A stretch of 33,996 nt of DNA from Methyloceanibacter sp. (GTDB taxonomy: Bacteria; Pseudomonadota; Alphaproteobacteria; Rhizobiales; Methyloligellaceae): contig JASJEH010000042.1 in NCBI GenBank assembly GCA_030064755.1, positions 1-33,996 of the forward strand, read 5' to 3'. Both the position numbers and the translations under genes were made by a program. Positions 8,720 to 27,993 of this stretch are shown here, piece after piece; position 1 is the stretch's first letter, and every line of letters starts with the position of its first letter. The notes under the pieces are model-generated. The model saw only the letters and a program-made list of their open reading frames with translations, was not told the DNA's origin and searched no databases.

Positions 8720-9385
8720 TCAAGACTTGTCCGGTAGCGGCGGCGAAAAAAGGGCACGCTCTCCCAGACCCCCTGGCATGCCCTCAACGCGCTCGCGATC
8801 CACAGTAACGAGGCCCGATGCCACGAGACGCAACGCGTGCGGGTAAAGGCGGTGTTCGGCGGTGAGCACCCGGGCCGCGAGGCTCTCTTCCGTATCGTCC
8901 GAAAGTACGGGAACGGCCGCTTGGGCTACAATTGGGCCGTCGTCCATCGCCGCCCGCACAAAGTGAACCGTGCATCCGGTGATTTGAGCGCCAGACTCAA
9001 GCACACGCGCATGGGTATCGAGACCTTTGAAGGCAGGGAGCAGTGAGGGATGAATGTTGAGATGGCGGTTCAGCCAGCGCGATACGAAGCCCTCGGTCAG
9101 AAGACGCATGAAGCCCGCATTGCAAAGGAGCTCGACTTTGGCCTCGCTCAGCGCATCGTGCAGCGCGTCCTCGAAGGCCTCTCGCGAGCCGAAGCTCTTG
9201 TGGTTTATCGTGCTGGCGGGAATGCCTGCTGCCTTGGCACGGGCGAGACCTTGTACATCCGGCACGTTTGAAATCACGAGCACGAGCTCGGCGGGATACT
9301 CGGGGGCTTCCGCGGCATCGATAAGCGCTTGCAGATTGCTGCCGCGGCCCGAAACCAGAACGCCGACGCGGCGCTTCGTAGTCAT
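8720..9385 (-). CDS. purN: Phosphoribosylglycinamide formyltransferase
   Basis: PurN formylates glycinamide ribonucleotide with 10-formyl-tetrahydrofolate, the third step of purine synthesis. The protein has 221 residues. It shows the N-terminal [16 protein letters not shown] phosphate-binding loop, the NAGFMRLL segment, the catalytic core [16 protein letters not shown] with the conserved Asn and His, and the DDGPIVAQ motif carrying the conserved Asp. The start ATG overlaps the purM stop as ATGA, so translation is probably coupled. This two-gene arrangement is standard in alphaproteobacteria. Confidence 0.96.
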
Positions 9386-10673: not shown

Positions 10674-11846
10674 ATGACATGCAAGACGGCTAAAGGTTTC
10701 AGGCGGTTGGCGGCGAATTCTGCCAGATTGATTCGCCTTGCGCTGCTCGGCTCGCTCTTGCTCGCGGGGCCTAGTCCCGCCCTTGCCGCCAATCTCTTCA
10801 ATGTCGCTCAGGTCCACGTGGACGTCACGGCGAATGACGCTGTTGTGGCGCGGGAGAAGGGCATGGCGGAGGCAGAGACCAAGGCGTTCGGTACACTCCT
10901 CGCCCGGCTCGTACCCCTCAGCATGCAATCCACCCTGCCGGCGTTCTCCCATAGAGAGATCGAGGGGCTCGTGGCGGGGGTCGCCATCCATAGTGAGAAG
11001 ACATCGCATAGGCGCTATGTCGGCGTGCTTGATGTGCGCTTCTATCCCGGCGCGGTCCGGCAGTTTTTGAGCCGCCGCTCCATTCCCTATGTCGAGAGTC
11101 AGGCGTCGCCTATCTCGATCCTACCCGTCATGCTCGAGGTTGGTGGCATCGCCGAGGATGTGGGCGATAAGTGGCACGCAGCATGGGCGCGTTTGGACCT
11201 GAAGAACGGTGTTGCCCCCGCCACCCTTGTCGTACCGCGCGATGACATCGATGCGCCGACAGTCAGGTCTCTCATCGCAGGTGACACGGACGCCTATGCG
11301 TCCCTGCGCAGCGTCTACGGCTACGGCGGTCTCGTCGTTGCAGTGGGTGAAGTCGCCGATGGTCTATTCCAGATCCGGCTCGTGGGTGCGGATGCCGCCG
11401 GCGATGTGAATGTCACCGCAACAAGCTCTTTGGATCGCCGCGGTCCTCGAACCACTTGGGATAGAGCCGCGCAGATGGGGCTTCGCACCCTCGAACGGCG
11501 TTGGCAGCAACGTCTTGACCCCGGCTTCGATGAGACGGCACCGGCACCCTTCCGGCGCGGGTCTCTCTATCCAGGCGAGGTCGTCGCGCCCCAACAAGAC
11601 GCGCTGGGCCGGGTTAGTGCGCTTATTGAGTTCCCGAGCGTAAGGGATTGGCAGCAGATTCGTTTTGGGCTTCAGCGGGTCGAGGACTTGCGCGGCTTTG
11701 AGGTCGTCTCCAGGTCCGCGCGCGCGGCGGAGGTGGTCTTCGACTTCAACGGTTCCGCCGACCAATTGCAGGCCTTGCTCGCTCAAAACGGTATTGCGCT
11801 GTATCAGCGAGATGGTGCGCTTGTGATTCGAGCGTCTGTGCCGTGA
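10674..11846 (+). CDS. DUF2066 domain-containing exported protein
   Basis: A 390-residue protein with a signal peptide: basic start, hydrophobic core LALLGSLLLAGPSPALAA, predicted cleavage near residues 38-39. The remainder matches DUF2066: a domain starting FNVAQVHVDVTANDAVVAREKGMAEAE, a RRYVGVLDVRFYP strand, then ILPVMLEVGG and a C-terminal part in which repeated aromatic/acidic strands resemble a beta-rich periplasmic domain. The function of the family is unknown. The gene almost always heads a cluster with a CDP-alcohol phosphatidyltransferase and hdaA in alphaproteobacteria, as here, which hints at an envelope-related role. The upstream GGGGCGG may serve as ribosome-binding site. Confidence 0.85.
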   Translation: MTCKTAKGFRRLAANSARLIRLALLGSLLLAGPSPALAANLFNVAQVHVDVTANDAVVAREKGMAEAETKAFGTLLARLVPLSMQSTLPAFSHREIEGLVAGVAIHSEKTSHRRYVGVLDVRFYPGAVRQFLSRRSIPYVESQASPISILPVMLEVGGIAEDVGDKWHAAWARLDLKNGVAPATLVVPRDDIDAPTVRSLIAGDTDAYASLRSVYGYGGLVVAVGEVADGLFQIRLVGADAAGDVNVTATSSLDRRGPRTTWDRAAQMGLRTLERRWQQRLDPGFDETAPAPFRRGSLYPGEVVAPQQDALGRVSALIEFPSVRDWQQIRFGLQRVEDLRGFEVVSRSARAAEVVFDFNGSADQLQALLAQNGIALYQRDGALVIRASVP

Positions 11847-11968
11847 GATCTGGTCGCGAGCGGTACGTACAGGTGAGCCTGTAAAATCGGCTGCGGACTC
11901 TGCCCAGTCTGATAGTCTCCGGGCCAGAAGCAGCGACAAGAACACAAAGACGCTTGGGAGAAGCGCCG

Positions 11969-12619
11969 GTGAATATACCCAATACGCTCACATTTGCGCG
12001 GATCGTATCGGTCCCACTTTTGATCTGGTTGATCATCGACCAGGAATACTTCGGCGCGTTTGTGGTGTTCATGCTGGCGGGTATCTCCGACGCCGCCGAC
12101 GGTTATCTCGCCAAGCGCTACGGCTGGCGTACGGAACTCGGCGCCTATCTCGATCCAATCGCCGACAAAGCGTTGCTGGTCGCGATCTATGTGGTTTTAG
12201 GGCTTTCCGGCCATTTGCCTGTCTGGCTCGTGATTGTCGTGGTCAGCCGTGATGTCCTTATTGTCGGTGCGGTGGTTTTGGCCTGGATGATGTGGCGACC
12301 GGTCGAGGTCAAACCGCTCGCCGTCAGTAAGATCAACACATTCTCACAGATCGCGTTGGCCGGGCTGGTGCTCGCCCAGCTTGGATTGGGCCTCTGGGTC
12401 GGAGGTCTCGTCAGCGTACTGATCTGGATAACGGGCGGGCTCACTATTCTTTCAGCCATCGTCTACTTCACCGGATGGCTTCGGCACATGATGAGCTACG
12501 AGCCCGAGTTGCCTGAGTCCAGGCGCCATGCCCAAATGACCCCTGGGCGTTCCGAGGCGCCTGCGGTACAGGCTAAGAGCCGTAATGGCGCTTCCCGCCC
12601 CGAGGCGAGGACACCGTGA
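11969..12619 (+). CDS. CDP-alcohol phosphatidyltransferase (PgsA-like)
   Basis: A membrane enzyme of 216 residues that transfers a phosphatidyl group from CDP-diacylglycerol to an alcohol acceptor. The family signature D(x)2DG(x)2A(K)R(x)nG(x)3D(x)3D is complete at about residues 41-66 (DAADGYLAKR, then GAYLDPIAD), so catalysis and metal binding look intact. Several hydrophobic spans follow and the tail is hydrophilic. The GTG at 11969 is chosen because a GGGAGAAG site lies five bases upstream and the product begins MNIPNTLTFARI, typical for the family. Glycerol phosphate is the likeliest acceptor, giving phosphatidylglycerophosphate, but a second, housekeeping pgsA may exist elsewhere. Its stop overlaps the start of hdaA (GTGA). 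Confidence 0.85.
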   Translation: MNIPNTLTFARIVSVPLLIWLIIDQEYFGAFVVFMLAGISDAADGYLAKRYGWRTELGAYLDPIADKALLVAIYVVLGLSGHLPVWLVIVVVSRDVLIVGAVVLAWMMWRPVEVKPLAVSKINTFSQIALAGLVLAQLGLGLWVGGLVSVLIWITGGLTILSAIVYFTGWLRHMMSYEPELPESRRHAQMTPGRSEAPAVQAKSRNGASRPEARTP

Positions 12620-13293
12620 GCCCAGGGCAGCTTGCGTTCGATCTGCCGCACCGAGCGGCGTTGGGTGCGGAGGACTTTCTCGTCAGCGACTGCAATCTCG
12701 CGGCGGTACGAATGGTCGACGCATGGCCTGATTGGCAGCGGCCGGTGCAGGCGCTGGTCGGTCCGACAGCGAGCGGAAAGACCCATCTTGTCAGGGTTTG
12801 GCGGGAACGCTCCGGCGCGGAAGCCCTCGACCCGGCGACGTTGGATGTAGTATCGCTCGATGCGCACGTGCCTGGATCCTCGCTGGCAGTGGAGGATGCC
12901 GACCGGGCGGGGTTTGACGAGCAGTGGCTGTTCCATCTTCTGAATCTTGCAGTGGAGAAGCGCTTTTCGGTCCTGCTCACGGGCAGGACCAGCCCGACCC
13001 GCTGGCAGTTCACCTTGCCGGACCTGGTATCCCGTCTCAGCGCTGTGCCGGTCACGGAGATCGGCGCGCCGGACGAGGCCCTGCTGCGCACGGTCATGCT
13101 GAAACACTTTTCGGACCGTCAGCTGACGATCGAGCCAAAGATACTCGAATTCCTGGCGGTCAGGATTGACCGGTCGCTGGAGGCCGCGGCCGCGGCGGTC
13201 GACGCGGTGGACCGTGAGGCGTTGCGCTCGGGCCGGAAGATCAGCCGGCAACTGGTCGCGGAGGCGCTGGAACGTACTGCGACAACGGACTAG
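12616..13293 (+). CDS. hdaA: DnaA regulatory inactivator HdaA
   Basis: HdaA is a DnaA-related AAA+ protein that, with the loaded beta clamp, stimulates hydrolysis of DnaA-ATP after initiation and so prevents re-replication. The 225-residue protein carries an N-terminal clamp-binding-like motif GQLAFDLP (residues 4-11), a Walker A motif GPTASGKTHL (about 48-57), a degenerate Walker B region (AVEDAD), a sensor-like LLLTGRTSP segment and a C-terminal lid. It lacks a DnaA DNA-binding domain, as expected. The GTG start overlaps the preceding stop codon by four bases. The position after a CDP-alcohol phosphatidyltransferase and before ppk is the common alphaproteobacterial arrangement. Confidence 0.9.
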   Translation: MSPGQLAFDLPHRAALGAEDFLVSDCNLAAVRMVDAWPDWQRPVQALVGPTASGKTHLVRVWRERSGAEALDPATLDVVSLDAHVPGSSLAVEDADRAGFDEQWLFHLLNLAVEKRFSVLLTGRTSPTRWQFTLPDLVSRLSAVPVTEIGAPDEALLRTVMLKHFSDRQLTIEPKILEFLAVRIDRSLEAAAAAVDAVDREALRSGRKISRQLVAEALERTATTD

Positions 13294-13408
13294 GGCGCCC
13301 GGTTTGACGTTTACCGTTACGCTGGTGATACAGTTGCTGGCCTAACATGACTGCTCTAGCGTGGAGCGCTGGCGGGCAAGCAATGTCCGCAGTTTCAAGA
13401 GGATATCG

Positions 13409-15586
13409 ATGAACGTTTCGGAGGCGATAGAGCCGGAAGGCGCGGTTGCCCGAATCGCGGCCTATGGTCCAAGCCGCTACTTCAATCGCGAGCTGTCTTG
13501 GCTGAACTTCAATAAGCGCGTGATGGAGGAGGCAGAGAACGAACGCCATCCTTTGCTGGAGCGCCTTCGCTTTCTGTCGATTTCCGCCAACAATCTCGAT
13601 GAATTCTACATGGTTCGCGTCGCCGGGCTTCGCGCGCAAATGGTGGCTGGCATCGAAACGCCGAGCCAGGACGGACTAACGCCAGCCCAGCAGCTCGACC
13701 GGATCAATCGCTCCGTTGCCGATCTGACGGCCAGCCAACAAGAGAGCTGGGTGAGTCTCGAGGCGCTGCTCGGAGAGGCCGGCATTCACGTTCTGAGTTC
13801 CGACCAGCTCACGAGTTCAGAACGCAGCTGGCTCGAGGACCACTTCCTCAATCTGATCTTTCCGGTCCTGACCCCGATCGCTGTCGATCCGGCCCATCCT
13901 TTCCCCTTCATCCCGAATTTCGGATTCACCTTGGGACTGGAACTGGTGCGCGAGGGTTCCTTCCGCACGATGCACGCATTGCTGCCGATCCCTTCCCAGC
14001 TCGATCGGTTCATCCGCTTGCCGCAATCCGACGAGAGTGCGGGCATTCGCTTCGTCCGGCTAGAGACGGTCGTCGGCATCTTCGTGTCGCGACTTTTCCC
14101 CGGCTATCGCGTTCGCAGCCAAGGAGCATTCCGGGTCGTGCGCGACAGCGATATTGAAGTCCAGGAAGAGGCGGAAGACCTTGTGCGCGTCTTTGAGTCC
14201 GCGCTGAAGCGGCGGAAGCGGGGTTCGGTCATCCGGCTTGAGATGGAAGCGACTATGCCGTCAAGGCTGCAACGCTTCGTTATGCAGGAGCTGAAAGTCA
14301 CTGAACGCGAGAGCTTTGTGCAGAAGGGGTTGATTGGGCTCACCGACACGGACCAACTCATTGTCGCCGATCGACCCGACCTCAAATTCGCACCGTATGT
14401 CAGCCGGTTCCCCGAGCGTATTCGCGAGCACCATGGAGATTGCTTCGCGGCTATCGCCAAGAAGGACATCGTGGTTCATCACCCCTATGAGACTTTTGAC
14501 GTGGTCCTGCAGTTCCTGAAGCAGGCGGCGGCCGATCCGGATGTCGTGGCGATCAAGTGGACGCTCTACCGGACCAGCAAGACCTCGCCCATCATTGAGG
14601 CGCTAAAGGAAGCGGCCGAAGCGGGTAAGTCGGTGACGGCGGTCGTTGAGCTAAAGGCCCGCTTCGATGAAGAAGCCAACATCAAGTGGGCACGCGATTT
14701 GGAAAGTGCTGGCGTGCAGGTCGTCTATGGCTTCATCGAGCTGAAGACCCACGCCAAGCTCAGCCTGATCGTGCGCCGCGAGCGGGGTGAGCTGGCTACC
14801 TACTGCCATGTGGGTACCGGCAACTATCACCAGGTCACGGCGAAGATTTATACGGACCTGTCTTACTTCACAGCCGACCGCTCGATCGGCAACGATCTAT
14901 CCCGCATCTTCAACTATGTGACGGGCTATGCCGAGCCGGCGGAGCTTGAGTCCATGACGGTCTCTCCGGGCGGCATCCGCGCTCGCATTCTCGATCATGT
15001 CCGCGAGGAGATGTACCACGCCAAGGCAGGCCGGCCCGCGGCCATCTGGATGAAGATGAACTCTCTGGTCGATCCGGAGATTATCGATGCGCTCTACGAG
15101 GCGAGCCAAGCCGGCGTTGAGATCGATCTCGTTTGCCGGGGAATCTGCTGTCTGCGGCCTGGCGTACCGGGTCTTTCGGAGAACATCCAAGTGAAGAGTA
15201 TTGTTGGGCGCTTCCTGGAGCATTCCCGCATTTATTGCTTTGGCGCCGGACACGGACTGCCGCACCGAAAGGCGGCGGTTTACATCAGCTCTGCGGATAT
15301 GATGCCCCGCAACCTGAATCGGCGGGTCGAGGCTATGACGCCGATTAAGAACCCCACCGTTCACGAGCAGATCCTCGATCAGATCATGGTGGCCAATCTG
15401 AAGGACAATCTTCAGAGCTGGCGTGTTCTGCCCGACGGGAACTCCGTACGGATCAGTGTTGAGGAGGGCGAGGAGCCATTCTGCGCCCAGAACTATTTTA
15501 TGACCAACCCCAGCCTGTCGGGACGGGGCACTTCTCTCCCGGAAAACATGCCTCCACGCTTTACGCGGGTCGACGAGACCCTCTAG
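13409..15586 (+). CDS. ppk: Polyphosphate kinase 1
   Basis: PPK1 reversibly polymerises the gamma phosphate of ATP into inorganic polyphosphate. The 725-residue length is normal. The N-terminal domain begins [19 protein letters not shown] and continues with [18 protein letters not shown]; later come [16 protein letters not shown], the catalytic region with the phosphohistidine in [11 protein letters not shown], the HVGTGNYH motif, and the second catalytic region ending HSRIYCFG. The ATG at 13409 has an AAGAGGA site 5-6 bases upstream; an in-frame GTG at 13361 would add 16 residues without a ribosome-binding site. The gene is ten bases from ppx, so synthesis and breakdown of polyphosphate are probably co-transcribed. 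Confidence 0.97.
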
Positions 15587-15595
15587 TCTCTCACA

Positions 15596-17113
15596 ATGGC
15601 TGGGAGGAAGAAACGCGCGCCGGTCGCGGTGGTCGACATCGGCTCGAACTCGGTGCGGCTGATCGTCTACGACAGCGCCACTCACGCGCCTGCTCCACTA
15701 TTCAACGAGAAAATCTTGTGCGGTTTAGGCCGGACGATTGCGACCACCGGGAGCCTCGAGCCTGCCGGTGTGGCACGGGCGTTGCGGGCGCTTCGGCGAT
15801 TTCGAGCGCTGATTGCTCAGCTCAATGTGCATCGGACCGAGGTCATCGCCACGGCAGCCGCACGCGACGCTAACAACGGTCCGGATTTCATCGCCAAGGC
15901 CGAAGAGGTCTTGGGGACGCGGGTTACAGTCCTCTCGGGGACGATGGAGGCTGAACTTGCCGCGCTTGGCGTTGTCTCGGGAATCTATGCGGCCGACGGC
16001 TTTGTCGGCGATCTCGGGGGAGGTAGCCTGGAGCTTGTTGATGTCCGGGGTGGGCGGCTGTCCGATGCGCTGACTCTACCGCTTGGCGGGCTTCGGCTGA
16101 TTGATGTGTCTGGCGGCAACCTGAAAAAGGCACGCGAGGTTATCGACTCTGAGTTCTCCAAGGTCGATTGGCTCGAAAAGGGCCGTGGGCGCGACTTTTA
16201 TGCTATTGGCGGGACTTGGCGGGCAGTCGCGCGGCTGCATATGGCCCAGACGAATTATCCTTTGCGCGTCATGCACAACTACCGCATGGACGCTCAGGAC
16301 GCACTGAAGTTCGCCGGAGCGCTGTACGCCAAGCTCGATGAAGATATGCCTGGCCTCCGCGATGTCTCCAGCGCCCGGCGCGAGACGTTGCCCTACGGTG
16401 CACTGGTGCTCGAACGGCTCATAAAGCAGATGAAGCCCAGGTCCATCGTGACTTCGGTGTTTGGCATTCGCGAGGGGCTACTCTACAGCCTGCTTAGCGC
16501 CGAGGAGCGCGCCAAGGACCCGCTCATAGAGGCGTGCCACACGCTTGCTGTTCAGCGGGCCCGCTCGGTGGAGAACGCTAGCGAGCTGCTCGCTTGGACG
16601 GATGGCCTCTTCAGAGTGCCAGGGCCGGTCGAGACGCCAGAGCAGACACGGCTGCGTCATGCGGCGTGCCTGCTGTCTGATATCGGTTGGCGGGCCCACC
16701 CCGATTATCGCGGTGCCCAGAGCCTCAATCTCATCGCGAACGGGGACCTCGTCGGGGTTGACCATCCAGGCCGCGCGTTTTTGGCTCTGACCGCGTACTA
16801 CCGGAACGAAGGTGTTGTGAGCGACGAGCTGAGCCAGGGCCTTGTCGAGCTTGTCGATAAGGACGCTTTGAAGCGCGCGAAGATTCTTGGTGCGTCGTTT
16901 CGCGTGGCGCACATGGTGTCGGCGGCGATGCCGGGTGTCTTGCCGCACACGCCTCTCGACTATGAAGGCAACAGGCTGATCTGGACGTTACCCGAGCCAT
17001 ACGCCAATCTCGAAGGCGAGCGTGTTAGCCGCCGTTTCAAGACGTTGTGCAACCTGTTGGATTGCGAGCCAGAAATTCGGACGGGGGCGTCGTTTCAACT
17101 CGCTGCCGGTTGA
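15596..17113 (+). CDS. ppx: Exopolyphosphatase, Ppx/GppA family
   Basis: A 505-residue member of the ASKHA phosphotransferase superfamily that removes terminal phosphates from polyphosphate and, in some members, hydrolyses pppGpp. It shows VVDIGSNSVRLIVYD (first phosphate-binding motif, residues about 12-26), ATAAARDANN, the GDLGGGSLELVDV motif with the conserved glycines, and an HD-like C-terminal helical domain (about 310-480). It begins ten bases after the ppk stop and the two genes look like one transcription unit. A pppGpp phosphohydrolase activity cannot be excluded from sequence alone. Confidence 0.93.
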   Translation: MAGRKKRAPVAVVDIGSNSVRLIVYDSATHAPAPLFNEKILCGLGRTIATTGSLEPAGVARALRALRRFRALIAQLNVHRTEVIATAAARDANNGPDFIAKAEEVLGTRVTVLSGTMEAELAALGVVSGIYAADGFVGDLGGGSLELVDVRGGRLSDALTLPLGGLRLIDVSGGNLKKAREVIDSEFSKVDWLEKGRGRDFYAIGGTWRAVARLHMAQTNYPLRVMHNYRMDAQDALKFAGALYAKLDEDMPGLRDVSSARRETLPYGALVLERLIKQMKPRSIVTSVFGIREGLLYSLLSAEERAKDPLIEACHTLAVQRARSVENASELLAWTDGLFRVPGPVETPEQTRLRHAACLLSDIGWRAHPDYRGAQSLNLIANGDLVGVDHPGRAFLALTAYYRNEGVVSDELSQGLVELVDKDALKRAKILGASFRVAHMVSAAMPGVLPHTPLDYEGNRLIWTLPEPYANLEGERVSRRFKTLCNLLDCEPEIRTGASFQLAAG

Positions 17114-26298: not shown

Positions 26299-26357
26299 TC
26301 TGTGCAGGTTCTGAATTTTACCTTGCCGTTTGCCCCGCGCGTGCATGCAAACACAAC

Positions 26358-26392
26358 AAGGGCACGGGGAACTTTCGTCAGCCCGTGCCCTT
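26358..26392. terminator. Bidirectional terminator between the SMP-30 gene and lanM
   Basis: AAGGGCACGGG (26358-26368) pairs perfectly over 11 bp with CCCGTGCCCTT (26382-26392) around a 13-base loop. It lies between two convergent genes. Read on the minus strand it is followed by GTTGTGTTTGC, a partly T-rich tail, so it serves lanM best. Confidence 0.7.
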
Positions 26393-26404
26393 GCCGCATT
26401 GGAT

Positions 26405-26809
26405 CTAGAGATAAATAAGCTTCAGCAATCGCTGACCGGCTGGAGAACTCAGCTCGCGAAGATCAATCGTCCCGTCCATGTCGGGATTGGCTGCTCTGAA
26501 CATCGCTTTGACGAGCGCTTTGTACTCTCTCCAGTTCAAAGTCCCGTCGTTATCCGGGTCGGCCGCCCTAAGGCCAGCCGCGCTGAGACGCCCTCTGAGC
26601 TCGGCGGCGTCCAGCGTCCGGTCGTTATCCGGATTAATCGCCTTGAAGACCCTTTTGGCGCCCCTAATCGCCTCTTTCATGTCGATGGTGCCGTCGTTGT
26701 CAGGATCAAGGACCCTCAGCGCCGTGGCCGTATCAACAGCGGAAACCGGCGCGCTGGAGCAGAAAATGACAGCGAGAGTAACGCCTAGAATCGTTGCGAA
26801 TCTGAGCAT
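26405..26809 (-). CDS. lanM: Lanmodulin homologue (lanthanide-binding EF-hand protein)
   Basis: A 134-residue exported protein: signal peptide residues 1-24 (ending PVSA), then four EF-hand loops at 35-46, 59-70, 84-95 and 108-119. Each loop has Pro at position 2 (DPDNDGTIDMKE, NPDNDRTLDAAE, DPDNDGTLNWRE, NPDMDGTIDLRE), and adjacent loops are spaced by only 24-25 residues. Pro2, the tight spacing, and the end ELSSPAGQRLLKLI are the hallmarks of lanmodulin of Methylorubrum extorquens, a periplasmic protein binding lanthanide ions with picomolar affinity, and the loop positions coincide with that protein as I recall it. Loop 2 has Asn1 and Arg6, loop 3 Asn9, so these sites may be weaker. A strong AGGAG site precedes the ATG. 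Expression in lanthanide-using methylotrophs is expected. Confidence 0.9.
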   Translation of the reverse strand: MLRFATILGVTLAVIFCSSAPVSAVDTATALRVLDPDNDGTIDMKEAIRGAKRVFKAINPDNDRTLDAAELRGRLSAAGLRAADPDNDGTLNWREYKALVKAMFRAANPDMDGTIDLRELSSPAGQRLLKLIYL

Positions 26810-27045
26810 GGTAGGACTCCTTTTCTGCGTATCGAGCTGAATCTACCGGGAATCTGCTCGAATGAGAATGGCGTAAGCTGGCCAACCCCCGATCGACGCT
26901 TCCTCACTTGGCATGAAGTGTGGCGGCATGGTCCAGGAATTAGAACGGTACAGCTAGATTTGGAGCCGCCGGTTGCTCGGCAGCCTATGACCTTTGGCAT
27001 GCGTCCATGTCTGGTTCCGTGCTTCGAACAGATCTTTGATCCGGC
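26810..27045. other. 236-bp intergenic region upstream of lanM
   Basis: This stretch contains the lanM leader with its AGGAG site just after 26810 and must hold the lanM promoter unless the upstream gene reads through. No clear -35/-10 pair, riboswitch or terminator could be recognised. Confidence 0.4.
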
Positions 27046-27366
27046 CTATGGGCAGTCCGTATCGCGCACGAACCGGGCCTTCACCCAGCCCTTGGTGATC
27101 GCGTCGCCGCTGAAGCGTGTCATGGGACACCACCGGCTGCCCCAGGGGCGGTCGAGCGGTACACATTTGCCTTCGAGACGCAGAATGCCCTGACCCTTGT
27201 TTGGGATTATGTCGACGATTGGCGCTTTTGACGAAGCGTCGGCGCGCATGTTCAAGACATCGTCGTCGGCGACATTGACAATGTAGAGACAGCCGGGGCC
27301 GGTGGTTGCAAAGGATGGCGATGCGGCGCCAAAGATGACGATGCAGGCGATCAAGGATCTGAACAT
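27046..27366 (-). CDS. Secreted SH3-like domain protein
   Basis: A 106-residue protein with a signal peptide (residues 1-20, ending SFA) and a bacterial SH3 (SH3_3-like) domain: YIVNVADDDVLNMRADASSKAPIVDIIPNKGQGI is the typical pair of strands with an LNMR motif and a P-N-G turn, and WGSRWCPMTR...GWVKARFV the closing strands. Four cysteines (Cys26 and three more) probably form disulfides in the periplasm. Such domains often bind peptidoglycan or protein partners; the function here is unknown. A GGAG site lies upstream of the ATG. It is one of three exported small proteins in a row with lanM. Confidence 0.7.
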   Translation of the reverse strand: MFRSLIACIVIFGAASPSFATTGPGCLYIVNVADDDVLNMRADASSKAPIVDIIPNKGQGILRLEGKCVPLDRPWGSRWCPMTRFSGDAITKGWVKARFVRDTDCP

Positions 27367-27422
27367 AATGTGGTGCTCCGGTGTTGGCGGGGAGTTGCGC
27401 CGTGTTATCGGGATAATGTGGA

Positions 27423-27459
27423 TTGGCCCCCTAAGACATTCGTCGTCTTAGAGGGCCAA
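27423..27459 (-). terminator. Hairpin after the GX3-repeat protein gene
   Basis: Arms 27423-27437 and 27445-27459 pair over 15 positions with one C-A mismatch around a 7-base loop. It starts 28 bases after the stop codon of the minus-strand gene at 27487. No T-run follows on that strand, so it may be a terminator or an mRNA-stabilising structure. Confidence 0.5.
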
Positions 27460-27486
27460 ACCAGCAGGTCGGATTGATCGTTGCGT

Positions 27487-27906
27487 TTAGGGGCAGTTCT
27501 GGCCCGTCTGCATGCACTGGCGCATCCGCTCACGCAAATCGCCTTTCCAGGCTTGGGCATCTTCTTTGCCCTGAGCGCTGCCCTCACGTTCGCCGTTTTT
27601 GTAGCCTTTGGGGTAGCCAACAGCGTAGCCTTTTGCGTAGGCATTGCTGCAGGCTTGGCTGCCCGTATCGAGGGTGCCGACGCCGGAGATGGTATCGTTG
27701 TAGGAGGCGCGATAGGCGCCCTTGAAGCCATCTGTGTAGCCATCGCGGAGACCTTCGGCCTTACCATTGTTGTAGCACTGCTGCACGTTGGTGGCATAGG
27801 CCGGGACTGGGTTCGCGATATTGGCGAACATGAAGCCGGCAAGGATCAGGAGAGCAAACTTCGAGAGAAAAGAAAACTTATTCGTGGTCTGAGCAATCTT
27901 GGTCAT
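27487..27906 (-). CDS. Secreted protein with GX3 repeats, function unknown
   Basis: A 139-residue protein. Residues 1-38 form a signal peptide with a long N-region (hydrophobic core FALLILAGFMFA, cleavage after AYA). The mature part has two runs of glycine every fourth residue: Gly48, 52, 56, 60, and Gly93, 97, 101, 105, 109, 113, with Tyr often following the glycine (GYAVGYPKGYKNG). Four cysteines (44, 86, 131, 138) bracket the runs and suggest disulfides. The GX3 pattern recalls the eukaryotic Yae1 deca-GX3 family and glycine-zipper helices, but no specific family is recognised. The ATG at 27906 has a GAAGGAA site; an earlier in-frame start at 27987 would add residues before the signal peptide. 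It lies two genes upstream of lanM on the same strand. Confidence 0.75.
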   Translation of the reverse strand: MTKIAQTTNKFSFLSKFALLILAGFMFANIANPVPAYATNVQQCYNNGKAEGLRDGYTDGFKGAYRASYNDTISGVGTLDTGSQACSNAYAKGYAVGYPKGYKNGEREGSAQGKEDAQAWKGDLRERMRQCMQTGQNCP

Positions 27907-27993
27907 GATGTGTTCCTTCGTGGGTTCAGGTTGTGTGCGCTGGCTTGATCGCCAGAACTGAGAAGGAACGTACTCAGGCCCGTGCATTCGTTG

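Follow-up and report, generated by a model that had tools for sequence, protein, structure and literature searches.

A predicted lanmodulin from Methyloceanibacter with unusual residues in its metal-binding loops

Lanmodulins (LanMs) are recognised by three hallmarks described by Mattocks et al. 2023 (PMC10232371): four EF hands, a separation of 12–13 residues between them and a proline at loop position 2 (Pro2) in at least one of them. The same source puts the number of putative LanMs at 696, and PMC12482762 describes LanMs carried on plasmids as well as transfer from one class to another. Further marks of the family are a picomolar response to lanthanides against a millimolar one to calcium, a change from disorder to order and a periplasmic location. 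In Mex-LanM of Methylorubrum extorquens AM1 (6mi5, 8fns), EF4 begins with Asn1 and, according to PMC11561317, binds weakly, the N108D exchange lifting Gd stoichiometry from ~2.2 to 3.8. For Hans-LanM of Hansschlegelia quercus (8dq2, 8fnr), a table in PMC11845868 gives apparent Kd values of 68 pM for La and 91 pM for Nd, and the dimer network is described there as EF3 Glu9, EF3 Asp11 and Arg100; the Hans-LanM sequence has Asn1 together with a residue other than Gly at position 6 in EF1–3. Deletion of lanM in strains 22A and PA1 left growth on methanol unimpaired according to PMC9260416, and in strain 22A it led to La deposition and membrane defects.

The locus described here lies in a window of 33,996 nucleotides, the whole stretch of Methyloceanibacter sp. 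DNA that was analysed. An earlier note on this DNA had proposed a lanmodulin homologue at 26405–26809. These coordinates are right as counted on the plus strand, and the strand, which had been left unstated, is minus; the plus strand of the span contains a stop. The lanM coding sequence runs from ATG to TAG and specifies a protein of 134 residues (P0001). By eye, an RBS-like AAGGAG (26817–26822, minus) is present 7 nt upstream of the ATG, and a promoter scan around lanM returned no sigma-70-like sites. Directly 3′ of the stop codon, before a convergent SMP-30-like gene, lies a strong hairpin that may act as a terminator (26350–26400, minus). Its MFE of –40.6 kcal/mol over 101 nt comes without a shuffle control, and it is not among the three sites listed by a consensus terminator scan. 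We also considered a recent transfer of lanM, to which the composition test gives no pointer (GC3 of 0.674 against 0.675–0.781 in seven window genes).

P0001 opens with a signal-peptide-like start, as had been suggested, and by eye a Sec signal peptide can be predicted for residues 1–24 (26738–26809, minus) with an AxA-like end (VSA followed by VD). It carries no lipobox, because Cys17 comes after Phe. Four EF-hand loops follow, all encoded on the minus strand: EF1 DPDNDGTIDMKE (residues 35–46; 26672–26707), EF2 NPDNDRTLDAAE (residues 59–70; 26600–26635), EF3 DPDNDGTLNWRE (residues 84–95; 26525–26560) and EF4 NPDMDGTIDLRE (residues 108–119; 26453–26488). The number of loops, Pro2 in all four of them and loop starts 24, 25 and 24 residues apart agree with the earlier reading; the inter-loop gaps are accordingly 12/13/12 residues. 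The ligands D3, D5 and E12 are intact in every loop. A LanM-type C-terminal segment, SSPAGQRLLKLI (residues 121–132; 26414–26449, minus), is likewise present as first described, and SSPAGQRLLKLI-YL closes the protein.

P0001 thus shows all three hallmarks as given in PMC10232371 (four EF hands, gaps of 12/13/12 and Pro2 in four of four loops), and its four EF-hand motifs lie within fewer than 200 residues. Against the NCBIfam LanM equivalog model NF053806 it scores 156.4 bits (E = 3.8e-46) with a cut-off of 135, and phmmer relates it to Mex-LanM (6mi5) at E = 1.1e-34, values that exclude a chance resemblance. The top four solved structures by sequence are 6mi5, 8fns, 9pi2, an Ancylobacter protein titled lanthanum-bound, and 8dq2, which is Hans-LanM (E values from 1.1e-34 to 8.5e-18); the next match is a flagellar radial spoke protein (1.1e-6), and calmodulins score 1.2e-4 at best. 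In Pfam, P0001 matches above cut-off only generic EF-hand models, with EF-hand_1 in four stretches.

The predicted structure points the same way. An AlphaFold2 model built from a 30-row alignment, with metal absent, has a mean pLDDT of 89.7 and a pTM of 0.79, with low confidence for residues 1–20 and a helix at residues 123–132. Searching the PDB with Foldseek at E ≤ 0.001 retrieved four entries only, all titled lanmodulin (8fns, 8dq2, 6mi5 and 8fnr). The best match, 8fns (Nd-bound Mex-LanM), is 59% identical and superimposes with an rmsd of 0.5 Å over 102 columns, at a TM of 0.96 when normalised by target and 0.75 when normalised by query. For the calmodulins in the list of 50 fold matches, TM by query length is 0.17–0.30. 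A calmodulin-type protein, with about 25 residues between EF hands and a calmodulin fold, was rejected in view of the 12/13/12 gaps and these TM values. The profile and structure comparisons proposed in the earlier note therefore bear out its identification of a lanmodulin, and P0001 is no closer to calcium EF-hand proteins, the finding that had been named as speaking against it. As judged by sequence and predicted fold, the lanM gene product is a genuine lanmodulin; it adds one more protein to an established family and shows a few uncommon substitutions in its metal-binding loops.

Comparing P0001 with named lanmodulins shows where these changes lie. It shares with Mex-LanM four Pro2 loops, 12/13/12 gaps and a similar C-terminal motif, at 58% identity over the aligned part and with a predicted fold within 0.5 Å. 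Unlike Mex-LanM, it has Asn1 and Arg6 in EF2, where Asp/Glu1 and Gly6 are usual, and Asn9 in EF3, where Asp9 is replaced. Its EF4 has the same Asn1 as the EF4 of Mex-LanM that PMC11561317 describes as weak. The nearest LanMs among the matches listed belong to the same genus, M. marginalis R-67177 (62%) and M. superfactus R-67175 (53–54%). Both resemble P0001 in EF2 Asn1 and in a non-Gly residue 6 of EF2, and differ from it in EF2 Thr2 and Glu9 and in strongly acidic cores of –16 and –23, respectively. The M. superfactus LanM (L087, contig C29 of G012; 126.9–127.1 bits, just below the cut-off of 135) has an EF3 loop that is one residue short, which may disable the site. Hans-LanM is more distant (38% identity) and has the same fold (rmsd 1.6 Å to 8dq2) and EF2 Asn1. 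The positions of the Hans dimer network align with Asn92, Arg94 and Lys101 of P0001, and we therefore do not expect it to form a dimer of the Hans type.

We next set the loops of P0001 against those of 83 other LanMs, comprising three from loci L003, L006 and L007 and 80 taken from at least 172 relatives confirmed in a scan of species genomes. These 80 were found by an EF4 pattern, with three groups over-represented, and come mainly from Methylobacterium/Methylorubrum, Bradyrhizobium and Hyphomicrobium, with one in Ideonella. Arg at position 6 of EF2 occurs in none of the 83 (Gly in 78), and Asn at position 9 of EF3 is equally absent (Asp in 64, Thr in 17, Ser and Glu in one each). Asn1 is found in five of the 83 for EF2 and in ten for EF4. 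In the alignment, the rows with Asn1 in EF2 besides P0001 come from G008, G012, G018, G023 and G039 and from the solved Hans and Ancylobacter proteins, a set that comprises the family of P0001 plus the Hans-like type. The core of P0001 holds 17 basic and 17 acidic residues; its net charge of 0 is the joint highest of the 84 together with L106, the median of the other 83 being –7.

A tree was computed from 35 of the 83 LanMs, three solved LanMs, P0001 and ten EF-hand proteins without Pro2. The LanM rows separate from these ten at 100/100 on a branch of 1.89. Within the LanMs, P0001 stands beside the M. marginalis and M. superfactus proteins with weak support (86/22), and its placement near the Hans type, whose branch is long, is not strong either (83/77). 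The novelty of P0001 is modest and concerns loop residues, namely EF2 Asn1/Arg6 and EF3 Asn9. Since EF2 and EF3 depart from Mex-LanM at these positions, P0001 may bind with a different affinity or have a different number of tight sites. One could go further and see the LanMs of the Methyloceanibacter lineage as naturally standing between the Mex and Hans types; P0001, given these residues and its neutral core, would then differ in how many sites bind tightly or in its selectivity along the lanthanide series. This proposal is speculative and we think it rather unlikely.

The genome from which the window comes (3.0 Mb, 157 contigs, 90.59% complete) gives five matches to TIGR03075, a PQQ dehydrogenase model that covers calcium and lanthanide enzymes alike: four over the cut-off, on contigs C133, C153, C24 and C152, and a fragmentary one where C152 ends. 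Among solved structures, the C24 enzyme comes closest to 7o6z, XoxF1 of Methylacidimicrobium thermophilum AP8, and next to 6oc5 and 6dam, entries labelled lanthanide-dependent XoxF. The C152 enzyme is 71.5% identical to that of C24. The nearest solved relative of the C153 enzyme is 1flg, the calcium enzyme ExaA, and those of the C133 enzyme are 6zcv/6zcw. According to PMC11996626, 6ZCW is the lanthanide-dependent PedH, and an extra aspartate marks lanthanide dependence, MxaF being without it. This aspartate is seen in the motif WDYDG of C24 and C152 and in WDFDG of C133, and is lacking from WDYSG of C153. The genome thus encodes three dehydrogenases with the lanthanide aspartate, two XoxF-type and one PedH-like.

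For MxaF, the motif WDYAG is absent from the four full-length TIGR03075 matches, and the fragment ends before the motif; because of this fragment and the 90.59% completeness of the genome, absence of MxaF is not proven. The WDYAG enzymes of G005 and G012 are taken as MxaF, and M. caenitepidi Gela4 has mxaF and four xoxF genes (PMC6417678). The genome further contains three XoxJ-type matches, two fae genes and one pqqC. With two XoxF-type genes found by the genome search that it had called for, together with the PedH-like enzyme and the PQQ-linked and formaldehyde-handling genes, the earlier suggestion of a lanthanide-using methylotroph as host gains support.

On C24 (8925–15201, plus), xoxF is followed by an XoxJ-type gene and by genes matching TIGR03863 (PQQ ABC binding protein) and TIGR03866 (PQQ-linked beta-propeller). 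The XoxJ-type gene (10789–12924, plus) is a frame of 711 residues with an XoxJ-like region at 142–375 and, at about 453–703, sub-cut-off matches that are mostly ankyrin-type by their family names. With the start codon as read, it looks like an XoxJ/ankyrin-type fusion.

We surveyed LanM in 61 genomes, the host and 60 relatives. Five exceed the cut-off of the LanM model (the host G000, G008, G018, G023 and G030), and two more, G012 (~127 bits) and G039 (97.1 bits), fall below it and align along nearly the whole model; counting both, seven genomes bear LanM at 97 bits or more. A PQQ dehydrogenase over the TIGR03075 cut-off is found in all seven, compared with 18 of the 54 others (Fisher p = 0.0011, kinship ignored). 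Within the genus, LanM occurs in only three of 17 genomes (several of the 17 being less than 90% complete), which suggests that methylotrophy there can do without it. The earlier note had valued a LanM outside the best-studied Methylobacteria; in view of the 696 proteins reported in PMC10232371 and the at least 172 relatives in our scan, such proteins are common.

To look for a conserved neighbourhood, we compared the 17 window proteins, LanM included, with 86 loci that carry lanM, of which three are duplicates (83 distinct places). LanM alone recurred, barring one 63-residue match of a window protein labelled DnaJ-like by eye, in both copies of the M. marginalis contig. A link of lanM to the SMP-30-like gene or to the Mrp-type antiporter genes is therefore unsupported. 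In the flanks of the 86 loci, a TIGR03861-type permease is present in eight cases and a PQQ dehydrogenase in 18 cases, of which 16 are from Bradyrhizobium. In the host, ABC genes for a TIGR03864 ATPase and a TIGR03861 permease lie on C104. The lanM contig has neither a TIGR03075 match nor a TIGR03861 match over the cut-off, so that lanM shows no linkage to xoxF or the transporter genes of C104; in strain 22A it likewise lies apart from lanthanide-transport genes (PMC9260416). Elsewhere in the window, polyphosphate kinase and exopolyphosphatase genes adjoin (13361–17113, plus), an ordinary arrangement. Two short ORFs upstream of lanM (27046–27987, minus) have secreted-looking N-termini by eye, and their family matches are either none or far below cut-off.

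We propose that P0001 is exported to the periplasm, where it would probably be largely unfolded without metal. Trivalent lanthanides would fill its EF-hand loops, in preference to calcium, and P0001 would then fold into the compact LanM bundle. In this way it may buffer and carry lanthanides entering the periplasm of a cell whose methanol or alcohol oxidation could use the lanthanide-type XoxF and PedH-like PQQ dehydrogenases. That P0001 is a periplasmic lanmodulin which folds on lanthanide and buffers or carries it in a cell so equipped is, in our assessment, very probably correct. The case is weaker for a role in supplying XoxF with metal, because lanM deletions leave methanol growth unimpaired, and even in the model species such a role is not established. 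La deposition and membrane effects upon deletion, without a growth defect, favour buffering over obligatory delivery.

These same phenotypes of strain 22A (PMC9260416) could also fit a protein that descends from LanMs but has undergone drift in EF2 and EF3; it would hold fewer lanthanides tightly, or select among them differently, and would serve detoxification or buffering, not delivery to XoxF. The rarity of its residues argues in this direction (EF2 Arg6 and EF3 Asn9 in 0 of 83, EF2 Asn1 in five), as does the weak Asn1-bearing EF4 of Mex-LanM, in which N108D raises Gd stoichiometry (PMC11561317). However, every loop of P0001 retains D3, D5 and E12, and Hans-LanM, with Asn1 and non-Gly6 in EF1–3, still binds La and Nd at the picomolar values listed in PMC11845868. 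We consider a drifted protein somewhat unlikely, and retain a lanthanide-buffering lanmodulin as the preferred reading.

Loop spacing required a separate comparison, for which 20 weaker EF-hand matches to the LanM model were hand-picked and fetched. Eight of the 20 have gaps of exactly 12/13/12 and 11 have 12/20–24/12; L177 would be a ninth 12/13/12 case if its third loop, missed by the loop pattern, is counted. The host itself encodes a secreted-looking protein of this kind on contig C100 (~8956–9378, minus; loci L052 and L016), with four EF hands and 12/13/12 gaps and without Pro2, and 47.5 bits on the LanM model against the cut-off of 135. Close relatives (at least 64% identity) occur in five other genomes of the genus (G002, G003, G004, G006 and G014), and more distant ones (42–46%) in four further genomes. 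The C100 protein resembles P0001 in its signal-peptide-like start, four EF loops and gaps, but lacks Pro2 and falls on the opposite side of the tree at 100/100. None of the loops detected in the 20 matches and the C100 protein has Pro2. Of the features that the earlier note held to set LanM apart, a spacing of 12–13 residues is weak evidence alone, because non-LanM proteins have it too. That P0001 might be a compact calcium-binding periplasmic EF-hand protein merely resembling lanmodulin, as the secreted-looking 12/13/12 proteins in several genomes of the order, its own included, could suggest, is highly improbable given the absence of Pro2 from their detected loops, the 47.5 bits of the C100 protein against 156.4 for P0001, the tree split at 100/100 (branch 1.89) and fold matches at E ≤ 0.001 that are lanmodulins only.

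The open-access papers searched include none naming both 'lanmodulin' and 'Methyloceanibacter', most subscription papers being outside the search. P0001 adds a Methyloceanibacter lanmodulin, although such sequences may be among the 696 of PMC10232371. The loop positions at which this natural variant differs matter for metal binding in Mex-LanM. Of the three hallmarks given in PMC10232371, spacing alone cannot tell a LanM from another bacterial EF-hand protein, a point of consequence for LanM counts in genome surveys. P0001 and the Pro2-less C100 protein, encoded in one genome, offer a natural comparison for the role of Pro2.
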